This document shows positions 31,415 to 43,670 of a stretch of DNA of 50,006 nucleotides, one piece after another. The DNA is taken from positions 1-50,006 of the IMG/VR virus record IMGVR_UViG_3300015199_000067; one strand, written 5' to 3'. The number at the start of each line of letters is the position of its first letter. Within the stretch, counting starts at the first letter, position 1. The position numbers and the translations under genes were made by a program. The notes under the pieces are model-generated. The model ran no database searches and was not told the origin of the DNA. It worked only from the letters and a program-made list of their open reading frames with translations. This DNA comes from a virus.

Positions 31415-31752
31415 AGGGCTGCGAATCATGCGAGTTCGGGTGGCGCGCCGTCTCCTCGAACTACCCGGTCACCCACTACCCGATGCCCGACCTTACGGGG
31501 CTCCCCGACGACCTGGCAGCCGCGGCACAAGCCGAGGTCGAGACACGCCGCGCGGCGCTCACCGACTCGGTGTACCCGTGCAAACAATGCCAACCCCACC
31601 TTTTTTTCAGGTGGGCGGAGGGCCACCTCGCCTCGAAACACGACCAGGACGACTGCGACGAATGCTCCGAGATCCGCCGCGGCAAACGCCCACAACGACG
31701 CTCCGCTCCGACCCAGGGACTTCCGCCGGCTCGAAAGGACACCGATTTCTGA
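31411..31752 (+). CDS. Zinc-ribbon-like protein
   Basis: A 113-aa protein from GTG 31411. Cysteine pairs occur in CESCEFGW, YPCKQCQPH and DDCDECSE, which could hold one or two zinc ions. The middle is helical (DDLAAAAQAEVETRRAAL) and the end basic (RGKRPQRRS). It overlaps the helicase loader upstream and the methyltransferase downstream, so it is likely part of the replication operon. No named family. Confidence 0.55.
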   Translation: MKGCESCEFGWRAVSSNYPVTHYPMPDLTGLPDDLAAAAQAEVETRRAALTDSVYPCKQCQPHLFFRWAEGHLASKHDQDDCDECSEIRRGKRPQRRSAPTQGLPPARKDTDF

Positions 31753-32519
31753 TGATCACCAAACCTGTGAGGCACCCAGCGAAGTTCTCCGACTCGATCC
31801 TCATGCAGATCGCGTTGGTCCTCGACGAACTGGCCGACAACGGGAGACTACCCGAGGGCGGGAGGATCCTCGATCCGTTCGCTGGGATCGGCAAGGTCCA
31901 CAAACTCGCTGACCGAGGATGGTCTACGAAAGGCGTCGAGCTGGAACCGGAGTGGGCGGAGCAGGACCCCCGGACCGTGGTGGGCGACGCCCGGTCCCTC
32001 CCGTGGGCCGACCACTACTTCGACGCGGTGGTCACGAGCCCGTGCTACGGGAACCGGATGGCCGACCACCACGACGCGAAGGACCCGTGCTCGAACTGTC
32101 AGGGTGCGCGCCACGACGACGACGGCGATTGTCGGGCGTGTGGTGGGTCGGGGCTCTCGAAACGCAACACCTACCGGCACGCCCTCGGCCGCGAACTCAC
32201 TCCCGGTTCCGGTGCGGGGTTGCAGTGGGGCTCCGCCTACCGGGCACTCCACGAGCAGGCGTGGCGCGAAGCCGTCCGGGTCGTGAAACCCGACGGGTTC
32301 CTGGTCGTGAACGTCTCGAACCACATTCGAGGAGGCGAGGAGCAACGGGTCGTGGAGTGGCACCTAAACACGCTTCTCCTCCTCGGGTGCTTCCTATGGG
32401 AGGTCCTCCGGGTGTCAACACCGCGGCTCGGGTTCGGAGCGAACGGAGACGCACGAGTCGACGGCGAGAACATCATCGTGGTTCGGACCCCTCCTCCGGG
32501 CCCACCCCGGCTGCTATAG
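31752..32519 (+). CDS. DNA methyltransferase with an inserted zinc knuckle
   Basis: A 255-aa protein from ATG 31752. It has the AdoMet-binding motif LDPFAGIG (Asp41) and the catalytic motif SPCY (96-99), a variant of the N4/N6-amino methyltransferase (S/D/N)PPY, with a third strand WADHYFDAVVTSP. Between SPCY and the next helix is a cysteine-rich insert, Cys113-x2-Cys116 and Cys127-x2-Cys130-GGSG, much like DnaJ-type zinc repeats. Later VVKPDGFLVVNVSNH and GENIIVVR match family strands. The target base and site are unknown. Modification could protect phage DNA from restriction. Confidence 0.8.
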   Translation: MITKPVRHPAKFSDSILMQIALVLDELADNGRLPEGGRILDPFAGIGKVHKLADRGWSTKGVELEPEWAEQDPRTVVGDARSLPWADHYFDAVVTSPCYGNRMADHHDAKDPCSNCQGARHDDDGDCRACGGSGLSKRNTYRHALGRELTPGSGAGLQWGSAYRALHEQAWREAVRVVKPDGFLVVNVSNHIRGGEEQRVVEWHLNTLLLLGCFLWEVLRVSTPRLGFGANGDARVDGENIIVVRTPPPGPPRLL

Positions 32520-34428: not shown

Positions 34429-34762
34429 CCTCATCTGCAAAGCGAAAGTGCCGGTGCCCGGCTCCCAGCGGATGCTCCGGTGGTGTGGGAACTCTGCGCA
34501 GCCGACCGAGGCCGGTCCGCGCTGCGATCACCACTCGCCTCCTCCGAGGGGCGGGCACCCGAACGGGCAACGGATCCGGGCGATCATGCTGGCCGACGCC
34601 CTCACGCTCTCACGGGAGGAACGCCACGAGTTCGCGGAGATGCTCGTCAAGCACAAGGGGTCATGGTCGAACCTTGGGGAGGCCGAAGCGCGCAGGATCG
34701 CTGACGCCCTCGAAGGGTTCCCGATCGTGCAAGCGATCCTGTACATGAGGACGAACCGGTGA
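34421..34762 (+). CDS. Hypothetical protein with CDH motif
   Basis: A 113-aa protein from ATG 34421, overlapping the ASCH gene by eight bases with AGG as ribosome site inside it. It opens LICKAKVPVPGSQRMLRWCGN...RCDHHSPPP, with Cys/His residues that could bind metal, and continues as a helical domain (RIRAIMLADALTLSREERHEFAEML). No family is recognised. The gene overlaps its neighbour on both sides. Confidence 0.55.
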   Translation: MGDLICKAKVPVPGSQRMLRWCGNSAQPTEAGPRCDHHSPPPRGGHPNGQRIRAIMLADALTLSREERHEFAEMLVKHKGSWSNLGEAEARRIADALEGFPIVQAILYMRTNR

Positions 34763-35256
34763 GCGCACGGTTGCGGCTCCGGCGCGCCGACGGCCGTGTC
34801 TACCTCGACCGCTACGGGTTCGAGTTCCCGTCGAAACGCGAGCCCACCGATGACGGCCCGAGCCGGCTCCCCTGGTTCGGTATCTTCCTCCACCGGATGG
34901 ACGCCCCCGATCCCGGGATCGATCTCCACGACCACCCGTGGTGGTTCGGTTCCCTGATCCTGTGGGGTGGCTACACGGAGGAGCGCGCACCGATCCGGGA
35001 ACCCGATCGTGGGGTGATCGTCTCCCGATCCTGGCTGTCGTGGCGGACGATGCGGCTCGACGAATCCCATCGCATCACCGGGCTATCAAGGAAACGGGTG
35101 TGGACCCTGGTCATCCACGGTCCCGTCCGGCGCGGCTGGGGCTTCTACCTCTGTGACGGGTGGATGCCGTGGCGGGTCTACGACTCCACGGTCCGGGCGG
35201 AGCGTCGGGATATGTTCGCTGAGATCTCAAACGACGGTCGGGTCCCGAACCGATGA
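34759..35256 (+). CDS. Cupin-like protein
   Basis: A 165-aa protein from GTG 34759. The central part reads GIFLHRMDAPDPGIDLHDHPW-WFGSLILWGGYTEE: the DLHDHPWxFxSxxLxGGYxE block is a cupin metal-binding motif, with paired histidines and a later His in VWTLVIHGPVRRGWGFY. These phage cupins are of unknown activity; some cupins are dioxygenases or isomerases. It lies between DNA-processing genes, but its substrate cannot be inferred. Confidence 0.65.
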   Translation: MSARLRLRRADGRVYLDRYGFEFPSKREPTDDGPSRLPWFGIFLHRMDAPDPGIDLHDHPWWFGSLILWGGYTEERAPIREPDRGVIVSRSWLSWRTMRLDESHRITGLSRKRVWTLVIHGPVRRGWGFYLCDGWMPWRVYDSTVRAERRDMFAEISNDGRVPNR

Positions 35257-35744
35257 AACGCCAACCCGAACCAACCGAGATCCTCGTGTGCCCGTACTGC
35301 TCGGGGAGGTTCTCGAAACGGTCGAGCTTCCGACGCCACGTCGTTCTCGACGAGTGCGGGAGGGTGCCGCTCGAAGCGTCCTGTTCGATGATGGCAACGG
35401 AGGGAAAGACGATCCGAGAAGACGAGTTCCAACGGCTCGTCATGGTCCTCGCGGAACGAAACGGGTGGATGACCTGCCACGTCCGGCGCGCCATCATGTC
35501 CGACGGCAGGATGCTGACCGCGACCTCCTCTCCAGGATTCCCGGACCTGACCCTGTGCCGCCCACCGCAGTTGGTGTTCCTCGAATTGAAAGCCGAACGG
35601 GGTCGGACCTCACCGGAGCAAACCCGGTGGATCCGGTCCGTCCAGGGCTGCGACGGGGTCGAGGCGTACATCGTGAAACCGTCGGATTGGCGGGAGATCC
35701 TCGGTCTCCTGACCCCCAAAGTCACCAGCCCCTTATCGTGCTAA
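35253..35744 (+). CDS. VRR-NUC nuclease with an N-terminal C2H2 finger
   Basis: A 163-aa protein from ATG 35253. Residues 11-30 (CPYCSGRFSKRSSFRRH, read as CPYC then a His) form a C2H2-like zinc finger. The rest is a VRR-NUC domain: helix EDEFQRLVMVLAERNGW, GFPDLTLCRPPQLVFLELKAERG with Asp98, Glu111 and Lys113 as the PD-(D/E)xK set, and SPEQTRWI. VRR-NUC proteins cut branched DNA and are proposed as Holliday-junction resolvases in phages. Its last codons overlap palindrome copy 4. Confidence 0.8.
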   Translation: MKRQPEPTEILVCPYCSGRFSKRSSFRRHVVLDECGRVPLEASCSMMATEGKTIREDEFQRLVMVLAERNGWMTCHVRRAIMSDGRMLTATSSPGFPDLTLCRPPQLVFLELKAERGRTSPEQTRWIRSVQGCDGVEAYIVKPSDWREILGLLTPKVTSPLSC

Positions 35745-36235: not shown

Positions 36236-36461
36236 GCGATCACAGGATGAGATCCTCTCGGAGTTGGAGGAGATCCGCTCGGGGCTCGCGGAGCACCAGG
36301 AAGCGCTCTCCGCGCTCTACAGCCGGAGGATCGCTCTGTGGCTCGAAGGCCGCGGCATGGACCCACCGATGCGCCACACCATCCTCGGTGAGGCATGCGG
36401 GGTCGGTGAGGCAGCGGTCATCAACGCCCTCCGGGCCCGACGAGAAAAGGGTGAGGGATGA
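36228..36461 (+). CDS. Small helical, possibly HTH protein
   Basis: A 77-aa protein from ATG 36228, overlapping the previous gene by eight bases. It begins with a coiled coil (DEILSELEEIRSGLAEHQEALSALY) and ends RHTILGEACGVGEAAVINALRAR, which fits a helix-turn-helix where ACGVGEAAVINAL would be the recognition part. It may guide the following ParB-type protein to DNA. Both genes overlap by four bases. Confidence 0.6.
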   Translation: MGERSQDEILSELEEIRSGLAEHQEALSALYSRRIALWLEGRGMDPPMRHTILGEACGVGEAAVINALRARREKGEG

Positions 36462-39214
36462 CCCAGCGGTCGGTCTCCTACATGCCGTTGGCTGACCTCT
36501 CCGGTCGGCGCGCACCGGGCAACCCGAAGAAACACGACGCGGCGATCATCGAGCGGTCCGTGTCCCGGTTCGGGTTCGTCGAACCGATCGTGATCGACGA
36601 ACGCACCGGCAGGCTCGTCGCCGGTCACGGACGACTCGACGACATCGAAGCTCGCCGCGACGCGGGACACGAACCACCCGACGGGATCGAGATCGACGAG
36701 GGCTCCTGGTTGGTGCCCGTGATCCGAGGGTGGGCGTCGAACTCCGACGACGAAGCGAACGCGTATCTCGTCGTCTCGAACCAGGCGACGATCCTCGGAG
36801 GGTGGGACGAGCAGGCGTTGGCGGATCTCCTCGGCTCGCTCAAATCCTCCGACCATGTGGTGTTCGAAGCGTCCGGGTTCTCCGACGCAGGGCTCGAACA
36901 ACTCCTGTCGTCGCTCGACGCATCCTCGGGCCCGGAGGACACCGAACCGGAACCTCCCCGTCCGAGCCTGGCCGACCGGTTCTTGGTGCCACCGTTCTCT
37001 GTCCTGGACGCCCGGCAGGGCTATTGGCAGGACCGGAAGCGGGCGTGGCTCGGGCTCGGATTCCGCTCCGAGTTGGGTCGCCCCGTGAACCTCCTCAACA
37101 TGAGCGAGCAGGTCACCACCGGGTACTCCACCCCCAACAAGTCGATCCCGTCCGTCTCCGGGAACGACCCAGCGTTCTTCTACAAGAAACGGGAGGCAGA
37201 AAAGGCGGTGGGGCGGGAACTGACCACGGCTGAATTCCTGGCCGACCACTACGCCTTCGACTACGTGCGAGGAACGTCGGTGTTTGACCCGGTGCTCTGC
37301 GAGGTCGCGTACCGGTGGTGGTGCCCTCCCGCCGGTCAGGTCCTCGACCCGTTCGCTGGTGGTTCGGTCCGAGGGATCGTCGCCGCGAAACTCGGCTGCG
37401 ACTACACGGGAGTGGACCTCCGCTCCGAACAGGTCGACTCGAACGTAGAGCAACTCACCGCGATCGCGGACGATCTCCCTGGCGCGGCGCGCTGGGTTGT
37501 CGGTGACTCCCTCCGAGACCAACCCGAGGGCCCCTACGACTTCGTGTTCACCTGCCCACCGTATTTCGACCTGGAGCAGTACTCCGACGACCCCGCGGAC
37601 CTCTCGAACGCCGACTCGTATCAAGAGTTCCTCCAGTCCTACCGGGCGATCATCGATCAGGCCGTCTCCCGGCTCCGCGACAACCGGTTCGCTTGCGTAG
37701 TCGTCGGAGATATTCGCGACTCGAAGGGCCACTACCGCGGGTTCGTCGGTGACACCATCGCGGCGTTCGAGCAGGCGGGTACCCGGTTCTACAACGAGGC
37801 GATCCTGGTCACTCCCGGAGGGTCTCTCGCTCTGCGCGCCGCTCGGATCTTCAACGGCGGACGCAAGGTCGGGAAGGCCCACCAGAACGTCCTCGTGTTC
37901 GTCAAAGGCGATTGGCACGAGGCGTCCGAGGCGTGCGGAACGATCGACCCGGTTGACGTGGCGGAGCTGTTCGGGATCGTCCTAGACGACGAACCGGAGA
38001 CCACCGCGGTCGAGCCCTCGGAGATCGCTTCGCCGTCCTGGGCGAAGGGCTTTGATCTCGCTCGGCTCAAGGTCGTGGCCGACCTATTCGACCGGTTCGA
38101 CGGTCCGCTCCCTCTCGGGGCGTTCTCCCGCGCCAAAGAAACAACGATCGCAGAATGGGCGTCCGCCGGAAAACTCCAGGCGTTCGGCATCGATGACACC
38201 CCGGTCGCCGCGGTCGTCTCCTTCCAGGCGCATCAAGCGCGCGGGATCTCCGACTTCCGAGGACGGGAGATCGCCCGAGTGAAAACGGGCGATCAGGTGG
38301 TGACGCGGGTTGCTTGCGATGCGGAGCACGCCCCGATGCTCGTCGAACTTCTCCGAGGGTTCCTTCCTCGTCTGTTCGTCGAGGTTTGGCAGGAACACCC
38401 GATCTCCCGAGCGATCGTCGACGCTCTCGGGCTCGAATGGCTCGGAACGAAGGTGAAAGCGTCCTCGGAGTTGATCGGGATCTACGGGCCAGCGCCGGCA
38501 GACCCACCGTCGGGGCTCGACGCCTGGGGTCTCGTCGAGTTCGGGGTTTCCTACGATCTCGCCGCGCTCCGCTCGGAGATCGAGCACGCCGCGGTCGAGT
38601 GGGCGGACCACTACGCGGTTTACAACAAGGGCAAGTCGTGGTCAGCGGTCGCTCTCCGAGGCTATGGAGGCGACCCGGAGTTCATCATCAAGCCGTCCGA
38701 GATGTCGAAGAAATGGAAGGCGGAGAACGAGGAGAAGTTGGCGTGGGAGTTGGCCGACACACCGCTGGCCGACCGGGTCCCCGTTGCGTGCTCCATTGTC
38801 GATTCGATCCCAGGGGTCAAACACCGGGTGCGGCTGATGCGTCTCTCCGGCGGGCAGGGCGAGCTATCACGCCACGCCGACAGCACCGACCCCGACGCTG
38901 GGATCGCTCCCGGTCAACTCCTTAGACTCCACCTCCCGATCGTGACAAACGAAGCGGTCCGGTTCCGTTCGTGGCTCCCCGTCGGAGACGAACAGACCAC
39001 TCACATGGCAGCCGGGTCGGCGTGGTATCTCGACACCCGGAAACCACACACCGCACGCAACGACGGAGACACCGATCGGATCCATCTCGTCGTCGATGTC
39101 GAATCGAACCCGGAGCTGCTCGCCCTAGCGCGGGACGAAGCGGAGATCGACACAACAATGAACCGGTTCGAACTTCCACCGACGGTCCTCCCGGTTGAAC
39201 CGTGGACGCTCTGA
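36458..39214 (+). CDS. ParB-like / DNA methyltransferase / GNAT-like / aspartyl-asparaginyl hydroxylase-like fusion
   Basis: A 918-aa protein from ATG 36458. Residues 1-125 match ParB-type nuclease domains (FGFVEPIVIDERTGRLVAGHGR, with GHGR at 56-59). Residues 195-485 are an amino-methyltransferase: DPFAGGS at 297-303, then TCPPY (365-369) and VVVGDIRD. Residues 525-690 look GNAT-like (FDLARLKVVADLFDRF...VVTRVAC...VEVWQEHPISRAIVDALGLE). Residues 705-910 fit an aspartyl/asparaginyl beta-hydroxylase (2-oxoglutarate, Fe) domain: His806-Ala-Asp808, distal His864 and Arg874. ParB-MTase fusions are known in actinophages; the added domains suggest that a methylated or hydroxylated base is further altered. 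It directly overlaps a PLP-enzyme-like gene. Confidence 0.8.
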   Translation: MTQRSVSYMPLADLSGRRAPGNPKKHDAAIIERSVSRFGFVEPIVIDERTGRLVAGHGRLDDIEARRDAGHEPPDGIEIDEGSWLVPVIRGWASNSDDEANAYLVVSNQATILGGWDEQALADLLGSLKSSDHVVFEASGFSDAGLEQLLSSLDASSGPEDTEPEPPRPSLADRFLVPPFSVLDARQGYWQDRKRAWLGLGFRSELGRPVNLLNMSEQVTTGYSTPNKSIPSVSGNDPAFFYKKREAEKAVGRELTTAEFLADHYAFDYVRGTSVFDPVLCEVAYRWWCPPAGQVLDPFAGGSVRGIVAAKLGCDYTGVDLRSEQVDSNVEQLTAIADDLPGAARWVVGDSLRDQPEGPYDFVFTCPPYFDLEQYSDDPADLSNADSYQEFLQSYRAIIDQAVSRLRDNRFACVVVGDIRDSKGHYRGFVGDTIAAFEQAGTRFYNEAILVTPGGSLALRAARIFNGGRKVGKAHQNVLVFVKGDWHEASEACGTIDPVDVAELFGIVLDDEPETTAVEPSEIASPSWAKGFDLARLKVVADLFDRFDGPLPLGAFSRAKETTIAEWASAGKLQAFGIDDTPVAAVVSFQAHQARGISDFRGREIARVKTGDQVVTRVACDAEHAPMLVELLRGFLPRLFVEVWQEHPISRAIVDALGLEWLGTKVKASSELIGIYGPAPADPPSGLDAWGLVEFGVSYDLAALRSEIEHAAVEWADHYAVYNKGKSWSAVALRGYGGDPEFIIKPSEMSKKWKAENEEKLAWELADTPLADRVPVACSIVDSIPGVKHRVRLMRLSGGQGELSRHADSTDPDAGIAPGQLLRLHLPIVTNEAVRFRSWLPVGDEQTTHMAAGSAWYLDTRKPHTARNDGDTDRIHLVVDVESNPELLALARDEAEIDTTMNRFELPPTVLPVEPWTL

Positions 39215-39909
39215 CCCCTCCCACCCTCTCGTGGCACGACGACATTCTCGTTGTCCGCGACGACCTCCTCGAGGGCGGGTCCAAAGTCCGGGTCGCTCCT
39301 GATCTCCTCGACTCCGCGGATGAGTGGGTGTTCGCTGGTCCCGCTCAGGGCCACGCCCAGCTCGCGCTCGCGATCGCGTGTGAGCGCACCGGGAAACGCG
39401 GTGTGTTCTTCACCGCGGCGCGAAAGAAACCGCTCCCGCTCACGATCCAAGCGATGACCCACGGGCTCAAAGTGGTGTTCGTCCCTTACGGGCGGATGAG
39501 CAACGTCCAAGCCAAAGCCCGCGCCTACTGCGAGGCGACCGGCGCGCAGTTCATCCACCTCGGGCTCCTCCTCCCAGGGATGGAAGACGCTCTGTTCGCC
39601 CTCGCGTCGACCCTCAACGTGTCGCCCGATCAGGTGTGGGTGACCGCCGGCTCCGGGACACTCTCACGGGCCCTCGCTCGGGCGTGGCCGAACGCAGAGA
39701 TCAACTCGGTCCAAGTCGGCATGGCGTCGAGGCTCCCCGAGCGGGCGGTGCGATGGGTCGCCCCGGAGCGGTTCGAGGAAAACGCGACCGGGAAACTCCC
39801 GCCGTTCCCGTCGGCCCGGAACTACGACGCGAAGGCGTGGCGGTTCGTGGACGCCCACGCCCGACGGGACGGCACGGCTTTGTTCTGGAATGTCGCCGGA
39901 CCGATATGA
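39202..39909 (+). CDS. PLP-dependent enzyme-like protein (ACC deaminase/cysteine desulfhydrase type)
   Basis: A 235-aa protein from GTG 39202, overlapping the fusion gene by 13 bases. It opens LSWHDDILVVRDDLLEGGSKVRVAPDLLDSADEWVFAGPAQGHAQLALA, parts of which match fold-type II PLP enzymes: RDDLLEGGSK (Lys28 is the likely Schiff-base residue) and GPAQGHAQLALAIAC for the phosphate-binding/substrate loop; VWVTAGSGTLSRAL is the later glycine loop. It is shorter than the usual 330 aa. Such enzymes are found near phage DNA hypermodification genes. It may act on an amino-acid substrate attached to a base. Confidence 0.65.
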   Translation: MDALTPPTLSWHDDILVVRDDLLEGGSKVRVAPDLLDSADEWVFAGPAQGHAQLALAIACERTGKRGVFFTAARKKPLPLTIQAMTHGLKVVFVPYGRMSNVQAKARAYCEATGAQFIHLGLLLPGMEDALFALASTLNVSPDQVWVTAGSGTLSRALARAWPNAEINSVQVGMASRLPERAVRWVAPERFEENATGKLPPFPSARNYDAKAWRFVDAHARRDGTALFWNVAGPI

Positions 39910-40025: not shown

Positions 40026-40859
40026 ATGCGAACAGCCACGATCCGACGAGGCAAGATCAAGACCTCCGACACCCACGCCCCGATCGACCAAGCAGCGAAA
40101 CCGGACGACGACCGGCCCTCCCCTCTCCCTGGCGATATGAGCACCGCCCAACTACGGGCCCTCCTCAAGACGAACGGGGTCGCCTACTCCGGGAAGGACC
40201 GGAAAGCCGACCTGGTTTTCAAGGCCCAGCAGCTCCGCTACGGCCCGAACGAGCGAAAGGGCGCTGCGGTCACCGAGGTCGAGAAAGCGGAGGCTCGTAT
40301 TGACGAGCTGGCAGCGGAGATCATCTCCGGGTCCTCCTCCTTTGAGGAGGTCGTTGTCGGGCTCCTCACCGAGCCCGCGAAGCGAGGCAGGACGGCACCC
40401 ACGACGGAGCGGGTCGCGGAGCCGGAGCCGGCTGCGATCAAGGTCGTGGACGGTAAAACGCGGGTGGAGCGCACCGCCGCTGCACGGTCGGAGTTCGAGG
40501 CTCTCAAGGCGTGGACCGAGGGTGGTCGCACCGACCCTCGCCCCTCGACCCCGAACCTCGATGCGATCACCGAGGAGTCGACGCACCCCGGAGCCAAGAC
40601 GGCACGTCGGGCACCCAAGCAACCCAAGCGGGCGTCCCACGAGGTCACGGTCAGGTTCGAGGTCGACGGCAAGCCGGTAGGCGCAACCCAGAACCGGCTC
40701 TCGTCGATCGCCAGGGTTACGGCCACGGCCGACTCCCCACGGTGGCCGGCTCCGCAGCTCCGCGAGTGGTTGGTCGAGAACGGGATCACCGACCCGGAGA
40801 CCTCCGCCTGGTCGATCGAACTCCCAAACGGTCGGACGATCGGCGCGAAGCTCCCCTGA
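40026..40859 (+). CDS. SAP-domain early protein
   Basis: A 277-aa protein from ATG 40026 behind the shared leader with AAGGAG. Residues 38-70 fit a SAP motif (STAQLRALLKTNGVAYSGKDRKADLVFKAQQ). The middle is charged, helical and likely flexible, and the last 75 residues are beta-rich (HEVTVRFEVDGKPVGATQNRL...PQLREWLVENGI). SAP domains are DNA-binding. Its strong leader and perfect palindrome suggest high early expression. The role could be structural on DNA. Confidence 0.65.
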   Translation: MRTATIRRGKIKTSDTHAPIDQAAKPDDDRPSPLPGDMSTAQLRALLKTNGVAYSGKDRKADLVFKAQQLRYGPNERKGAAVTEVEKAEARIDELAAEIISGSSSFEEVVVGLLTEPAKRGRTAPTTERVAEPEPAAIKVVDGKTRVERTAAARSEFEALKAWTEGGRTDPRPSTPNLDAITEESTHPGAKTARRAPKQPKRASHEVTVRFEVDGKPVGATQNRLSSIARVTATADSPRWPAPQLREWLVENGITDPETSAWSIELPNGRTIGAKLP

Positions 40860-40881
40860 GCCCTCGCTCTCCCGCCCTGGT

Positions 40882-40907
40882 GCCCTCCTCGCTCCCGCGG
40901 GGAGGGC
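40882..40907 (+). terminator. Hairpin after the SAP protein
   Basis: GCCCTCC (40882-40888) and GGAGGGC (40901-40907) form a 7-bp G+C-only stem with a 12-base loop; an alternative inner CTCCC/GGGAG stem competes. No T-tract. Confidence 0.5.
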
Positions 40908-40922
40908 TTCGGCGGTGACAAG

Positions 40923-40938
40923 GAGCCCGATCGGGCTC
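40923..40938 (+). promoter_or_regulatory. 16-bp perfect palindrome upstream of the DUF932 gene
   Basis: GAGCCCGATCGGGCTC is a perfect palindrome 25 bases before ATG 40964. This early unit lacks the TTAG palindrome that heads the others, so this sequence may be its operator, or a stem in the leader. Confidence 0.4.
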
Positions 40939-40963
40939 ACCAACCCCCAAGGAGCAAACCACC

Positions 40964-42034
40964 ATGCCTGCCTACTTCGACACTGGGTTCTGCGTCCGCC
41001 AACCCTCCTGGCACCGTCAAGAACTCCTCCTCGACGAATACCCGACCGACTGGGCCGACGCCCGCGAGAAGGCCGGTCTCCTCTGGGAGCCGGAGGTCGT
41101 TGACGCCTACCGTCAGCTCCCCTCGACCCTGTGCCCGATGTGCACCGCGGTACCCGGCTCGCTCCACGGCGAGTCGTGCGTCGACTTCGGGCTCCTCAAC
41201 CCGGACACCCCGACCTACCTCGCGGCGGAAAACCAACGGCTCGTCGTCCGCAACGATACGGGAGCGGTCCTCGGAGGCGTCTCCGACCGGTTCGAGCTGA
41301 TCTCCCACGAGGAGATGGGGCGGATCCTCGAAGCCCTAGCGGAGGTCGGTGGCACCAACCTCCGCTTCGAGACCGCCGGCTCGTGCAAGGGAGGAGCGCA
41401 GGTCTGGGCGGTCCTCTACCTCGACGAGCCCTACAACGTCGCGGGCGACAACACCGAGACGTTCCCGTTCATCTCGATCCTCAACGCCCACGACGGCTCC
41501 GGTGCGTGCAAGGTGGTCCGCAACCAGGTCCGGGTCGTCTGTTGGAACACCTACAACGCGGCGTCGATGGAGGGCGACCGCACCGGACTCCAATACGTGT
41601 TCCGCCACACCTCCGGAGCGAAAGTCCGGGTCGAGGACATGATCGGTGACGCCACGGCAGCGCTCGAAGGGCTCCGCACCGAAGCCCGAGCGTGGCAGGT
41701 CCTCGGAGAAGAACTCTCGGGGCTCCCAGCCGACGAGATCCAACTGAACCATTTCCTCTCGGAGTTCATCCCCGCGCCGGAAGCCGACATCGTCTCGGAT
41801 CGGGTCGCGGCGAACATCGACAAGGCTCGGGCCATGTTCCGGCAGATCTACCTCGACTCCCCGACCTGTGAGGGCCACCGCGGCACCGGGCTCGGGCTCA
41901 TCGACGCATCCGTCGAATACCTCGATCACGTCCGAGGGTTCCGGAACACCGACTCCTACATCGGGCGGACGGTCCTCCGCCCGGAGCCCCTCAAGGCGAA
42001 GGCTCTGGAGATCGTCCGGCGGGTCTGCGCCTGA
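40964..42034 (+). CDS. DUF932-family phage/plasmid protein
   Basis: A 356-aa protein from ATG 40964 behind the AACCCCCAAGGAGC leader. It matches the DUF932 (phage/plasmid-like TIGR03299) pattern: FCVRQPSWHRQELLLDEYP at the start, RLVVRNDTGAVLGGVSDRFELISHEEM, GGAQVWAVLYL, FISILNAHDGSGACKVVRNQVRVVCWNT and FRHTSGAKVRV. Such proteins are widespread in phages and plasmids, with unclear function. The distinctive cysteines (LCPMC) near residue 55 may be an additional metal site. It is in its own transcription unit, ended by a hairpin. Confidence 0.85.
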   Translation: MPAYFDTGFCVRQPSWHRQELLLDEYPTDWADAREKAGLLWEPEVVDAYRQLPSTLCPMCTAVPGSLHGESCVDFGLLNPDTPTYLAAENQRLVVRNDTGAVLGGVSDRFELISHEEMGRILEALAEVGGTNLRFETAGSCKGGAQVWAVLYLDEPYNVAGDNTETFPFISILNAHDGSGACKVVRNQVRVVCWNTYNAASMEGDRTGLQYVFRHTSGAKVRVEDMIGDATAALEGLRTEARAWQVLGEELSGLPADEIQLNHFLSEFIPAPEADIVSDRVAANIDKARAMFRQIYLDSPTCEGHRGTGLGLIDASVEYLDHVRGFRNTDSYIGRTVLRPEPLKAKALEIVRRVCA

Positions 42035-42067
42035 ATCCTAGGATCTGGGATCGCCTTTCCCCTCCGC

Positions 42068-42091
42068 CTCCGCCCTCGGGTGGGGGCGGAG
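42068..42091 (+). terminator. Hairpin after the DUF932 gene
   Basis: CTCCGCCC (42068-42075) and GGGCGGAG (42084-42091) pair perfectly (8 bp) around an 8-base loop, between the DUF932 gene and palindrome copy 6. Confidence 0.55.
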
Positions 42092-42125
42092 CCGCGTTCC
42101 GGGCGAAGCGGGTTGCACCCCTCGC

Positions 42126-42141
42126 CCTTAGCGGGCTAAGG
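42126..42141 (+). promoter_or_regulatory. TTAG-palindrome promoter/operator, copy 6
   Basis: CCTTAGCGGGCTAAGG: the most symmetrical copy, with 7-bp arms (CCTTAGC/GCTAAGG) around GG. The -10 would be TAAGGT with GGC instead of TGC before it; TTGCAC at 42113-42118 is a weak -35 at 18 bases. It precedes the helicase gene. Confidence 0.65.
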
Positions 42142-42200
42142 TTCCTTCTCGACGGGTCCGTGTGGTACGGGCCCCAACCCCTAGCAGAAGGACACGAACC

Positions 42201-43670
42201 ATGAACCCAACACCCGAACAGCAACGAGCGGTGGACCTTTTCCTCACCGGGAACCCGCTGGTCATCGAAGCCGGAGCCGGGACCGGCAAGACCTCGACTC
42301 TCAAACTGCTAGCGGAGGCAGCCCCGGACCGCTCGATGCAGTACGTCGCTTTCAACCGGGCGATCGTCGAGGAGTCCCGCTCGAAGATGCCGAAGAACGT
42401 GACCTGCTCCACGATCCACTCCCTCGCGATGCGGGCGGTCGGCTCGAAGTACCGGCACCGCCTCAACGGAAACCGGCTCAAGTCGATGGAGATCGCCCGC
42501 CGGCTCGGAGTCGACGACCTCATAATCACGGTCGGGCCCGACCAGACCAAGCGGATGAGCGGAGGGTTCCTCGCCTCGCATGTGATGCGCGGGATCGTCC
42601 AGTTCTGCCAGTCCGCCGACTCCGCCCCATCGGGCGACCACCTCCCCTACATCGACGGCATCGATCTCCCGACGGCGAAGGGCAAACGGACCTACGACAA
42701 CAACCGGGCGATCGCCAAGCACCTCTCCGGTGCGATCTCCCGAGCGTGGGCGGACCTCCAAGACCCCGACGGGGTTCTCCCCTTCGGCCACCACGTCTAC
42801 CTCAAAGTGTGGGAGTTGTCCGGGCCCACGATCCACGCCGACGTGGTGTTGTTCGACGAAGCGCAGGACGCATCGCCGGTCATGGCATCGATCATCGCTC
42901 AGCAGACCAAGGCGCAGCGGGTCTACGTGGGCGACTCCCAGCAGCAGCTCTACGCCTGGCTCGGGGCGGTCAACGCTCTCGGCTCGATCGACGGAGCGGA
43001 GCGAGCGTTCCTCACCAAGAGCTTCCGGTTCGGCCCGGAGATCGCACAGACAGCGAACCTGGTCCTGGAGTGGCTCGAAGCGGACCTCCGGATCACCGGG
43101 AACGAGGAGATCTCCTCCCGGACCGCCCGCCTCGACAACGCCGACGCTGTGCTCTGCCGGACCAACGCCACGGCGGTCTCGACCTGCCTCGCGGAGATGA
43201 GCGCCGGCAGGAAGGTCCACCTCGTCGGCGGAGCGAAAGACATCGTCGACTTCGCCAAGGGTGCCCGCGACCTCCAGAACGGGAAGCGCTCCTACCACCG
43301 GGAACTCGCCTGCTTCGACTCGTGGAGTGAGGTCCAGGTCTACGTCGAGAACGACCCGCAGGGCTCCGATCTCAAACTCATGACCCGGCTGATCGACGAC
43401 TACAGCCCCGAGAAGATCATCGAGGGGCTCGGGCGGACGGTCTCGGAGGCCGCGGCTGACCTGATCGTCTCGACCGCCCATAAGTCGAAGGGGCGGGAGT
43501 GGCCGACGGTCCGCCTCGCGGGCGACTTCCCCGAGGACACAACCGACCCCGGTGAGCTGCGACTCCTCTACGTCGCCTCAACCCGCGCCCGTCTCACCCT
43601 CGACCACTTCGCCGCCCCGATGTTCTTCCCGGCACGCCCCAAGGCGGAGCCGGTCCCAGCCTCCCGCTAG
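42201..43670 (+). CDS. UvrD/Rep-type superfamily 1 DNA helicase
   Basis: A 489-aa protein from ATG 42201 behind AGAAGGA. All SF1A motifs are present: TPEQQRAV (Q motif), AGAGTGKT (24-31), STIHSLA, LFDEAQD, VGDSQQQLYAWLGA, KSFRFGPEIA, STAHKSKGREW and LLYVASTRAR. It is short for a UvrD-like helicase because the 2B insert is reduced. It would unwind DNA for replication, repair or recombination, with the RecA-like and SMC-like ATPases of the same region. It is a single-gene unit bounded by palindrome copy 6 and two strong hairpins. Confidence 0.9.
   Translation: MNPTPEQQRAVDLFLTGNPLVIEAGAGTGKTSTLKLLAEAAPDRSMQYVAFNRAIVEESRSKMPKNVTCSTIHSLAMRAVGSKYRHRLNGNRLKSMEIARRLGVDDLIITVGPDQTKRMSGGFLASHVMRGIVQFCQSADSAPSGDHLPYIDGIDLPTAKGKRTYDNNRAIAKHLSGAISRAWADLQDPDGVLPFGHHVYLKVWELSGPTIHADVVLFDEAQDASPVMASIIAQQTKAQRVYVGDSQQQLYAWLGAVNALGSIDGAERAFLTKSFRFGPEIAQTANLVLEWLEADLRITGNEEISSRTARLDNADAVLCRTNATAVSTCLAEMSAGRKVHLVGGAKDIVDFAKGARDLQNGKRSYHRELACFDSWSEVQVYVENDPQGSDLKLMTRLIDDYSPEKIIEGLGRTVSEAAADLIVSTAHKSKGREWPTVRLAGDFPEDTTDPGELRLLYVASTRARLTLDHFAAPMFFPARPKAEPVPASR

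Follow-up and report, generated by a model that had tools for sequence, protein, structure and literature searches.

Ackermannviridae DNA carries 5-NeOmdU (PMC11721090), and the conserved 5-hydroxymethyldeoxyuridine (5-hmdU) gene set of these phages includes a pyridoxal phosphate (PLP) enzyme (PMC6336734). In the CmoA/CmoX/CmoY 5-carboxymethylcytosine-glycine system, the phage DNA methyltransferase (MTase) CmoX moves a non-methyl group derived from S-adenosylmethionine (SAM) (PMC12783734). In the biosynthesis of the antibiotic caprazamycin, Cpz13 is proposed to transfer a four-carbon 2-aminobutanoate chain from SAM to give a glycyluridine-chain compound, which Cpz10 beta-hydroxylates on that chain and Mur23 can decarboxylate (PMC9814697). 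Here we compare with these systems two overlapping genes of IMGVR_UViG_3300015199_000067, a virus contig of 50 kb that encodes terminase, portal and major head proteins and belongs to a tailed phage ('the window' is the whole stretch analysed, of 50,006 nucleotides). An initial annotation, made from the sequence alone, had proposed that the first gene fuses ParB-like, methyltransferase, GNAT-like and 2-oxoglutarate (2OG)-dependent hydroxylase (HYD) domains, next to a gene for a PLP enzyme, as a possible DNA hypermodification system not described before. A role in phage DNA-base hypermodification is well supported by the sequence comparisons and structure models presented below, and it is moderately probable that the modification involves an amino-acid-derived adduct. 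Each of the domain families is already known; searches of the open-access literature found no description of a PLP enzyme inside an MTase, of GNAT-HYD acting as a unit for DNA modification or of the two together, in agreement with the annotation on this point.

Domain structure of the two gene products

The first open reading frame (ORF; 918 aa) is open at 36458-39214 (+) and the second (235 aa, with a GTG start) at 39202-39909 (+), the two overlapping by 13 bases. Their features are as follows.

36458..36937, + strand: ParB-like N-terminal domain, residues 1-160, with GHGR at 56-59 (phrog_620, phrog_15396 and phrog_723 in PHROGs)
36947..38002, + strand: N6/N4-type DNA MTase-family domain, residues ~164-515 (phrog_498, PF01555)
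37346..37366, + strand: MTase motif I, DPFAGGS, residues 297-303 (motif scan; DPFAGG[SP] in the relatives scanned)
37550..37564, + strand: MTase motif IV, TCPPY, residues 365-369 (motif scan)
38006..38512, + strand: GNAT-fold domain, residues 517-685, without the canonical acyl-CoA loop (AlphaFold2, Foldseek against PDB, motif scan)
38567..39103, + strand: Asp/Asn/Pro-type 2OG-Fe(II) hydroxylase (HYD) domain, residues 704-882 (PF05118, AlphaFold2, Foldseek)
38873..38881, + strand: Fe ligands H806-A-D808 (invariant, 33/33)
39047..39049, + strand: Fe ligand H864 (invariant, 33/33)
39077..39079, + strand: R874, presumed 2OG-binding arginine (invariant, 33/33)
39202..39909, + strand: short fold-type II PLP enzyme, 235 aa, GTG start (phrog_7093; family profile against 1j0a)
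39283..39285, + strand: K28, presumed PLP Schiff-base lysine (invariant, 25/25; aligned with the GGNK lysine of 1j0a)

The overlapping ORFs and all the motifs on which the initial annotation drew are present at the residues it assigned, including RDDLLEGGSK (residues 19-28) and GHAQLA (50-55) of the PLP enzyme. Profile searches recognised the MTase, the hydroxylase and the PLP enzyme in both Pfam and PHROGs (the last under the Pfam cut-off), and the ParB-like domain in PHROGs only (phrog_620, 1.6e-24; phrog_15396, 9e-25), the Pfam scan of the 918-aa protein giving no ParB match. With a ParB-like domain followed by an amino-MTase with DPFAGG and [ST]CPPY motifs (phrog_498, 7.9e-105; PF01555, 6.9e-10), the protein belongs to the phage ParB-MTase family of phrog_498/phrog_12517. 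All 85 motif matches of this MTase family have [ST]CPPY as motif IV, with an invariant Cys replacing the usual Asp, Ser or Asn, and the same is seen in prophiGD43A-5, which has no PLP gene. An attempt to read the base target from motif IV failed, as the Cys occupies the position whose residue is diagnostic in DPPY or SPPY; judged by its sequence, the motif does not tell adenine from cytosine.

The annotation had made its proposal depend on GNAT and double-stranded beta-helix folds in residues 525-910, and structure prediction found both. AlphaFold2 modelled residues ~510-915 (pLDDT 82, pTM 0.79) as two domains, an alpha-alpha-beta sheet and, after it, a double-stranded beta-helix. For the latter, Foldseek gave L-proline cis-4-hydroxylase (4p7w, 3.7e-11) as the best PDB match, with Cpz10 (2.7e-9) and AspH also found, and at E<=0.001 the HYD profile reached only L-proline cis-4-hydroxylase and Cpz10 in PDB, and not AspH. 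The Pfam match (Asp_Arg_Hydrox, PF05118, 4.2e-14), the fold, the intact HxD...H Fe site and the distal Arg, all invariant among the 33 relatives, place HYD in the PF05118 family. The GNAT domain modelled alone (pLDDT 93.7, pTM 0.87) had GNAT acetyltransferases as essentially all of its top 50 Foldseek matches in PDB (best E 3.6e-5, TM ~0.6); it is assigned to the GNAT superfamily by fold only, since no significant match was obtained in Pfam, PHROGs or PDB profiles.

The PLP enzyme matches phrog_7093 (6e-35) and, taken alone, falls under the 35-bit cut-off of Pfam PALP (1.6e-5, 24.8 bits), which is exceeded by its relatives in Microcystis phage Mae-JY30, Mycobacterium phage Vincenzo, Erythrobacter phage ZS04 and Pseudanabaena phage Pam4. 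A profile built from three sequences had no PDB match; one of 25 sequences matched 1-aminocyclopropane-1-carboxylate (ACC) deaminase (1j0a, 4.4e-12) and was ACC-deaminase/cysteine-synthase-like. The family profile, the Schiff-base Lys (K28, 25/25) and the conserved Gly-Ser-Gly phosphate-binding loop identify a fold-type II (PALP) enzyme, in which Tyr208 and Lys211 are conserved too.

Recurrence and linkage of the units in phages

The window C-terminus used as a single protein gave zero matches in IMG/VR, and an alignment including gp4 of Mycobacterium phage LilMcDreamy was needed to find first 13 and then 194 GNAT-HYD loci; alignment searches with the PLP enzyme found 431 loci, and both counts include near-identical viruses, some of them near-duplicates of one virus. 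The best 80 of each set were read. An MTase-family match was present in 77 of the 80 PLP loci, usually with ParB, and most GNAT-HYD loci on the MTase side adjoin PLP and/or MTase genes. In marine-like, T4-type IMG/VR contigs, the MTase beside HYD and PLP matches the MTase profile only partially, and may be another DNA MTase. The architecture of the window is repeated in a second viral contig (L101), which rules out an assembly artefact. L104 has a single ORF of 1275 codons in the order ParB, MTase N-part, PLP, GNAT, HYD, MTase C-part, in which motif I (at 366) and motif IV (at 1133) of the MTase enclose PLP, GNAT and HYD. Since this architecture recurs and the catalytic residues are invariant in the 33 HYD and 25 PLP relatives, chance is excluded.

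Among cultured phages, ParB-MTase and PLP genes are paired, adjacent or inserted, in Vincenzo and AlanGrant, Mae-JY30, ZS04 and R6L (both Erythrobacter phages) and Pam4; the PLP part lies within the MTase ORF of ZS04, between motifs I and IV, and is fused likewise with the MTase in Pam4. In a collection of 50,697 phage records only 70 matched the window protein, and all three records with a match to the window-type PLP enzyme fall among those 70, which is far above chance. PLP and MTase are a widespread core, to which GNAT-HYD is a less common addition. Clustering of neighbours for a further conserved modification gene returned terminase, recombination and T4-like genes, and no obvious modification enzyme. 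Genome assemblies of bacteria and archaea gave 48 HYD loci, of which only 2 have PLP and/or MTase beside HYD; a chromosomal restriction-modification origin was rejected, because the other 46 were without any other unit. No plasmids with the Mae-JY30-type PLP gene were found.

Vincenzo gp2, a member of the PLP family, matches PLP genes in 335 phage records, including Ackermannviridae and Glutamicibacter phage Montesquieu, and the CBA120 genome has one PALP match. The window-type enzyme can be connected to the Ackermannviridae clade by homology through intermediates (L145, L176, Pam4, L104), and an Ackermannviridae-type PLP gene lies next to HYD in L145, L146, L137 and L176. According to Lee et al., the Ackermannviridae enzyme reportedly decarboxylates a base-linked serine. 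Three of the PLP loci may be noted. In the T4-like contig L145 (2467-5073), HYD, an Ackermannviridae-type PLP gene and a different DNA MTase (with an SPPD motif) stand in a row, as a variant of the system. Montesquieu (L233:3943-7059) has a compact operon resembling those of thymidine hypermodification, its PALP-like PLP gene having an annotated aGPT-PPlase on one side and two PF18751 kinases on the other. The PLP gene of Vincenzo and AlanGrant (L006:1406-2275), paired with the ParB-MTase gene, is labelled 'carboxylate deaminase' or 'nucleoside deaminase', depending on the record.

A sister cassette with GNAT-HYD

A second GNAT-HYD lineage occurs in the order ParB - TET/JBP - amino-acid:DNA transferase (ADDT) - GNAT-HYD in every intact locus (L008, L009, L011, L012, L015, L018, L019 and L020). 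ADDT scores above the Pfam cut-off in LilMcDreamy, L008 and L015, and TET does so in L008 and falls slightly below it in L015. LilMcDreamy is the only phage of the cultured collection with GNAT-HYD. Cultured phages exist both for this cassette and for the PLP-MTase core. The two lineages split with full support in the tree (the single exception, L014, comes from a contig cut off upstream), and gene context therefore changed once. No TET or ADDT match was obtained beside the window GNAT-HYD, which alone is common to both arrangements. LilMcDreamy gp2 (L005:855-1787) is labelled 'queuine tRNA-ribosyltransferase' in its record and by phrog_6059; it and its relatives in L008 and L015 match the Tet_JBP oxygenase family (L008 above the Pfam cut-off), and from these matches the label looks wrong.

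Proposed function and alternatives

We suggest that the ParB-like domain would recruit the chain to DNA, where the MTase-family domain would engage a base and, with the PLP enzyme, install or process there a group derived from an alpha-amino acid. As the PLP enzyme sits inside the MTase fold in relatives, it is probably near the MTase active site. Candidate chemistries are transfer of a SAM-derived 3-amino-3-carboxypropyl group, or PLP-dependent beta-replacement as in beta-substituted alanine synthases; the data choose neither, and any single chemistry for installation of the group by MTase and PLP enzyme, taken by itself, is at best a doubtful guess. That an MTase might move a non-methyl SAM-derived group is reasonable, because CmoX is documented to do so (PMC12783734). 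The hydroxylase, as a relative of amino-acid hydroxylases, would then hydroxylate the side chain of the adduct, the GNAT-fold domain might position or acylate the amino group, and the product may protect virion DNA against host nucleases. A more specific version, in which MTase and PLP enzyme form a two-cofactor (SAM and PLP) DNA alkyltransferase that installs a 3-amino-3-carboxypropyl or other alpha-amino-acid chain directly on the base, with no 5-hydroxymethyl intermediate, before the fused HYD beta-hydroxylates it, is a tentative idea and an improbable one as it stands; if true, it would yield amino-acid-decorated DNA by a route unlike the known kinase/transferase routes.

In the interpretation offered by the initial annotation, hypermodification of DNA gains from the adjacency and fusion of the units, from the insertion of PLP or of PLP, GNAT and HYD in the MTase, and from the company that a sister gene keeps with TET/JBP and ADDT. 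The other two elements have lost ground. Hydroxylation of a methylated base is less likely than that of an amino-acid-derived chain, given the nearest relatives of HYD and the TET-ADDT cassette, and an acyl transfer like that of Mom, a family whose product is N6-carbamoylmethyladenine, is doubtful for a domain in which the canonical acyl-CoA loop is missing. The Mom family had zero matches in PHROGs or Pfam scans, and the GNAT fold may be a recognition module.

Several points weigh against hypermodification by an amino-acid adduct. The R/Q-x-x-G-x-G/A acyl-CoA (pyrophosphate) loop, expected between beta4 and alpha3, is missing from the window, alpha3 beginning 2 residues past beta4 in the model, and this pattern occurs anywhere in only five of the 33 relatives. 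In a direct profile comparison, cellular ACC deaminases are at least as close to the window-type PLP enzyme as the Ackermannviridae enzyme is. The tree shows just one switch of GNAT-HYD context, and the analogy with TET and ADDT therefore rests on one event; the locus counts are swollen by near-duplicates. The window ORFs scanned with PHROGs and Pfam gave no match to a 5-hmdU kinase, an aGPT-PPlase/ADDT or a hydroxymethyltransferase (some small ORFs were unscanned, and the record is perhaps incomplete). Finally, the same MTase family exists without PLP or GNAT-HYD, for example in prophiGD43A-5, and the MTase may therefore only methylate.

If so, the MTase would make ordinary N6-methyladenine or N4-methylcytosine, and the PLP enzyme and GNAT-HYD would modify that methyl group or be accessory, with no amino-acid adduct. 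The frequency of this MTase family in phages that have no PLP or HYD speaks for such a view, as do type II MTases being the best defence-library matches of the MTase domain; but we regard it as unlikely, because the insertion of PLP, and of PLP, GNAT and HYD, in the MTase fold and the near-constant linkage of PLP and MTase suggest one joint reaction, because the closest relatives of HYD hydroxylate amino-acid chains, and because the established substrates of fold-type II PLP enzymes are amino acids, not methyl groups. Less likely again is that PLP enzyme and HYD make a small-molecule precursor from free amino acids, to be coupled to DNA by some other ligase that escaped detection, with the fusion serving only to keep the enzymes together: although the closest PDB relative of HYD acts on free L-proline and the PLP enzyme resembles ACC deaminase and cysteine synthase, neighbour clustering revealed no recurrent ligase or transferase gene, and physical fusion to a ParB-MTase that binds DNA points to a substrate carried on the DNA.

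It seems very improbable that this is a system for host takeover rather than for DNA modification, in which the ParB-MTase would hold the hydroxylase, the GNAT-fold domain and the PLP enzyme on phage DNA while these act on a protein of the host or of the phage. Classic AspH is a hydroxylase of proteins, but the HYD profile does not reach it at the threshold used, and the parallel GNAT-HYD cassette goes with TET/JBP and ADDT, both DNA-base enzymes. In favour of a protein target, some GNATs of phages modify the RNA polymerase of the host (PMC7824862). A phage-borne restriction-modification or defence module, for which the match of type II MTase models to the MTase domain speaks, is hardly credible, since no nuclease recurs alongside within 5 kb and the near-absence of the linkage from the 48 bacterial and archaeal HYD loci indicates a phage system.

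Hypermodification with an amino-acid-derived adduct thus remains our preferred reading. Relatives of the PLP enzyme in recognised gene sets for thymidine hypermodification, those of Montesquieu and of the Ackermannviridae, also count in its favour. It would mean that a recurring phage system joins four enzyme types, and from it one would expect a class of DNA base, decorated with an amino acid, that has yet to be reported. A testable role also follows for the phage ParB-MTase family, for LilMcDreamy gp4 and for PLP genes whose annotation reads ACC deaminase or threonine dehydratase. New DNA modifications matter for restriction evasion, for phage engineering and as a source of DNA-modifying enzyme tools.

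Neighbouring genes in the window

Upstream, a second methyltransferase-like ORF (31428-32519, 363 aa) matches Methyltransf_11 (3e-7) and N6_N4_Mtase (4e-4). An ORF at 34759-35253, 1.2 kb upstream of the 918-aa ORF, matches phrog_4786, 'cysteine dioxygenase' (1.3e-30); it may encode a further redox enzyme for this pathway or have nothing to do with it. A VRR-NUC nuclease gene follows at 35253-35744. Downstream (40026-43670) are genes for a HeH/SAP-domain protein, a DUF932 protein and a UvrD-type helicase.

Comparison with known systems

The closest parallel to the fused C-terminal part is LilMcDreamy gp1-gp4 (ParB, TET/JBP-like, ADDT, GNAT-HYD), in which the ParB gene likewise comes first and GNAT-HYD is homologous over its whole length (BFVD 7.6e-33, TM 0.78/0.86); there, however, the genes are separate, and TET/JBP and ADDT take the place of MTase and PLP. 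The pairs in Vincenzo/AlanGrant, Mae-JY30, ZS04/R6L and Pam4 share the MTase family and a PALP-type PLP enzyme with the window, but GNAT-HYD was not found in their records. With Mu Mom the window shares a GNAT fold in a phage DNA-modification context, whereas its GNAT domain has neither a Mom family match nor the canonical acyl-CoA loop, and is part of a multi-enzyme chain.

The CmoA/CmoX/CmoY system resembles the window in having an enzyme of a DNA MTase family, whose SAM-derived group is afterwards extended by an amino acid, and in the ParBc protein often found near it (PMC12783734), but it uses a C5-cytosine MTase, a Cx-SAM synthase and an ATP-dependent ligase, none of which was identified among the window ORFs scanned. 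Cpz13 and Cpz10 likewise deal with a nucleoside-borne, four-carbon amino-acid chain, beta-hydroxylated by an Asp/Asn-type hydroxylase related to HYD (PMC9814697), in a small-molecule antibiotic pathway rather than on DNA. Lastly, the 5-(2-aminoethoxy)methyl-dU pathway of the Ackermannviridae (Vi01, CBA120) also includes a fold-type II PLP enzyme, distantly related to that of the window (profile-profile 99.0%), in a set for DNA-base hypermodification, but works on thymidine by way of a 5-hmdU kinase and aGPT-PPlases, with no ParB-MTase fusion or HYD.

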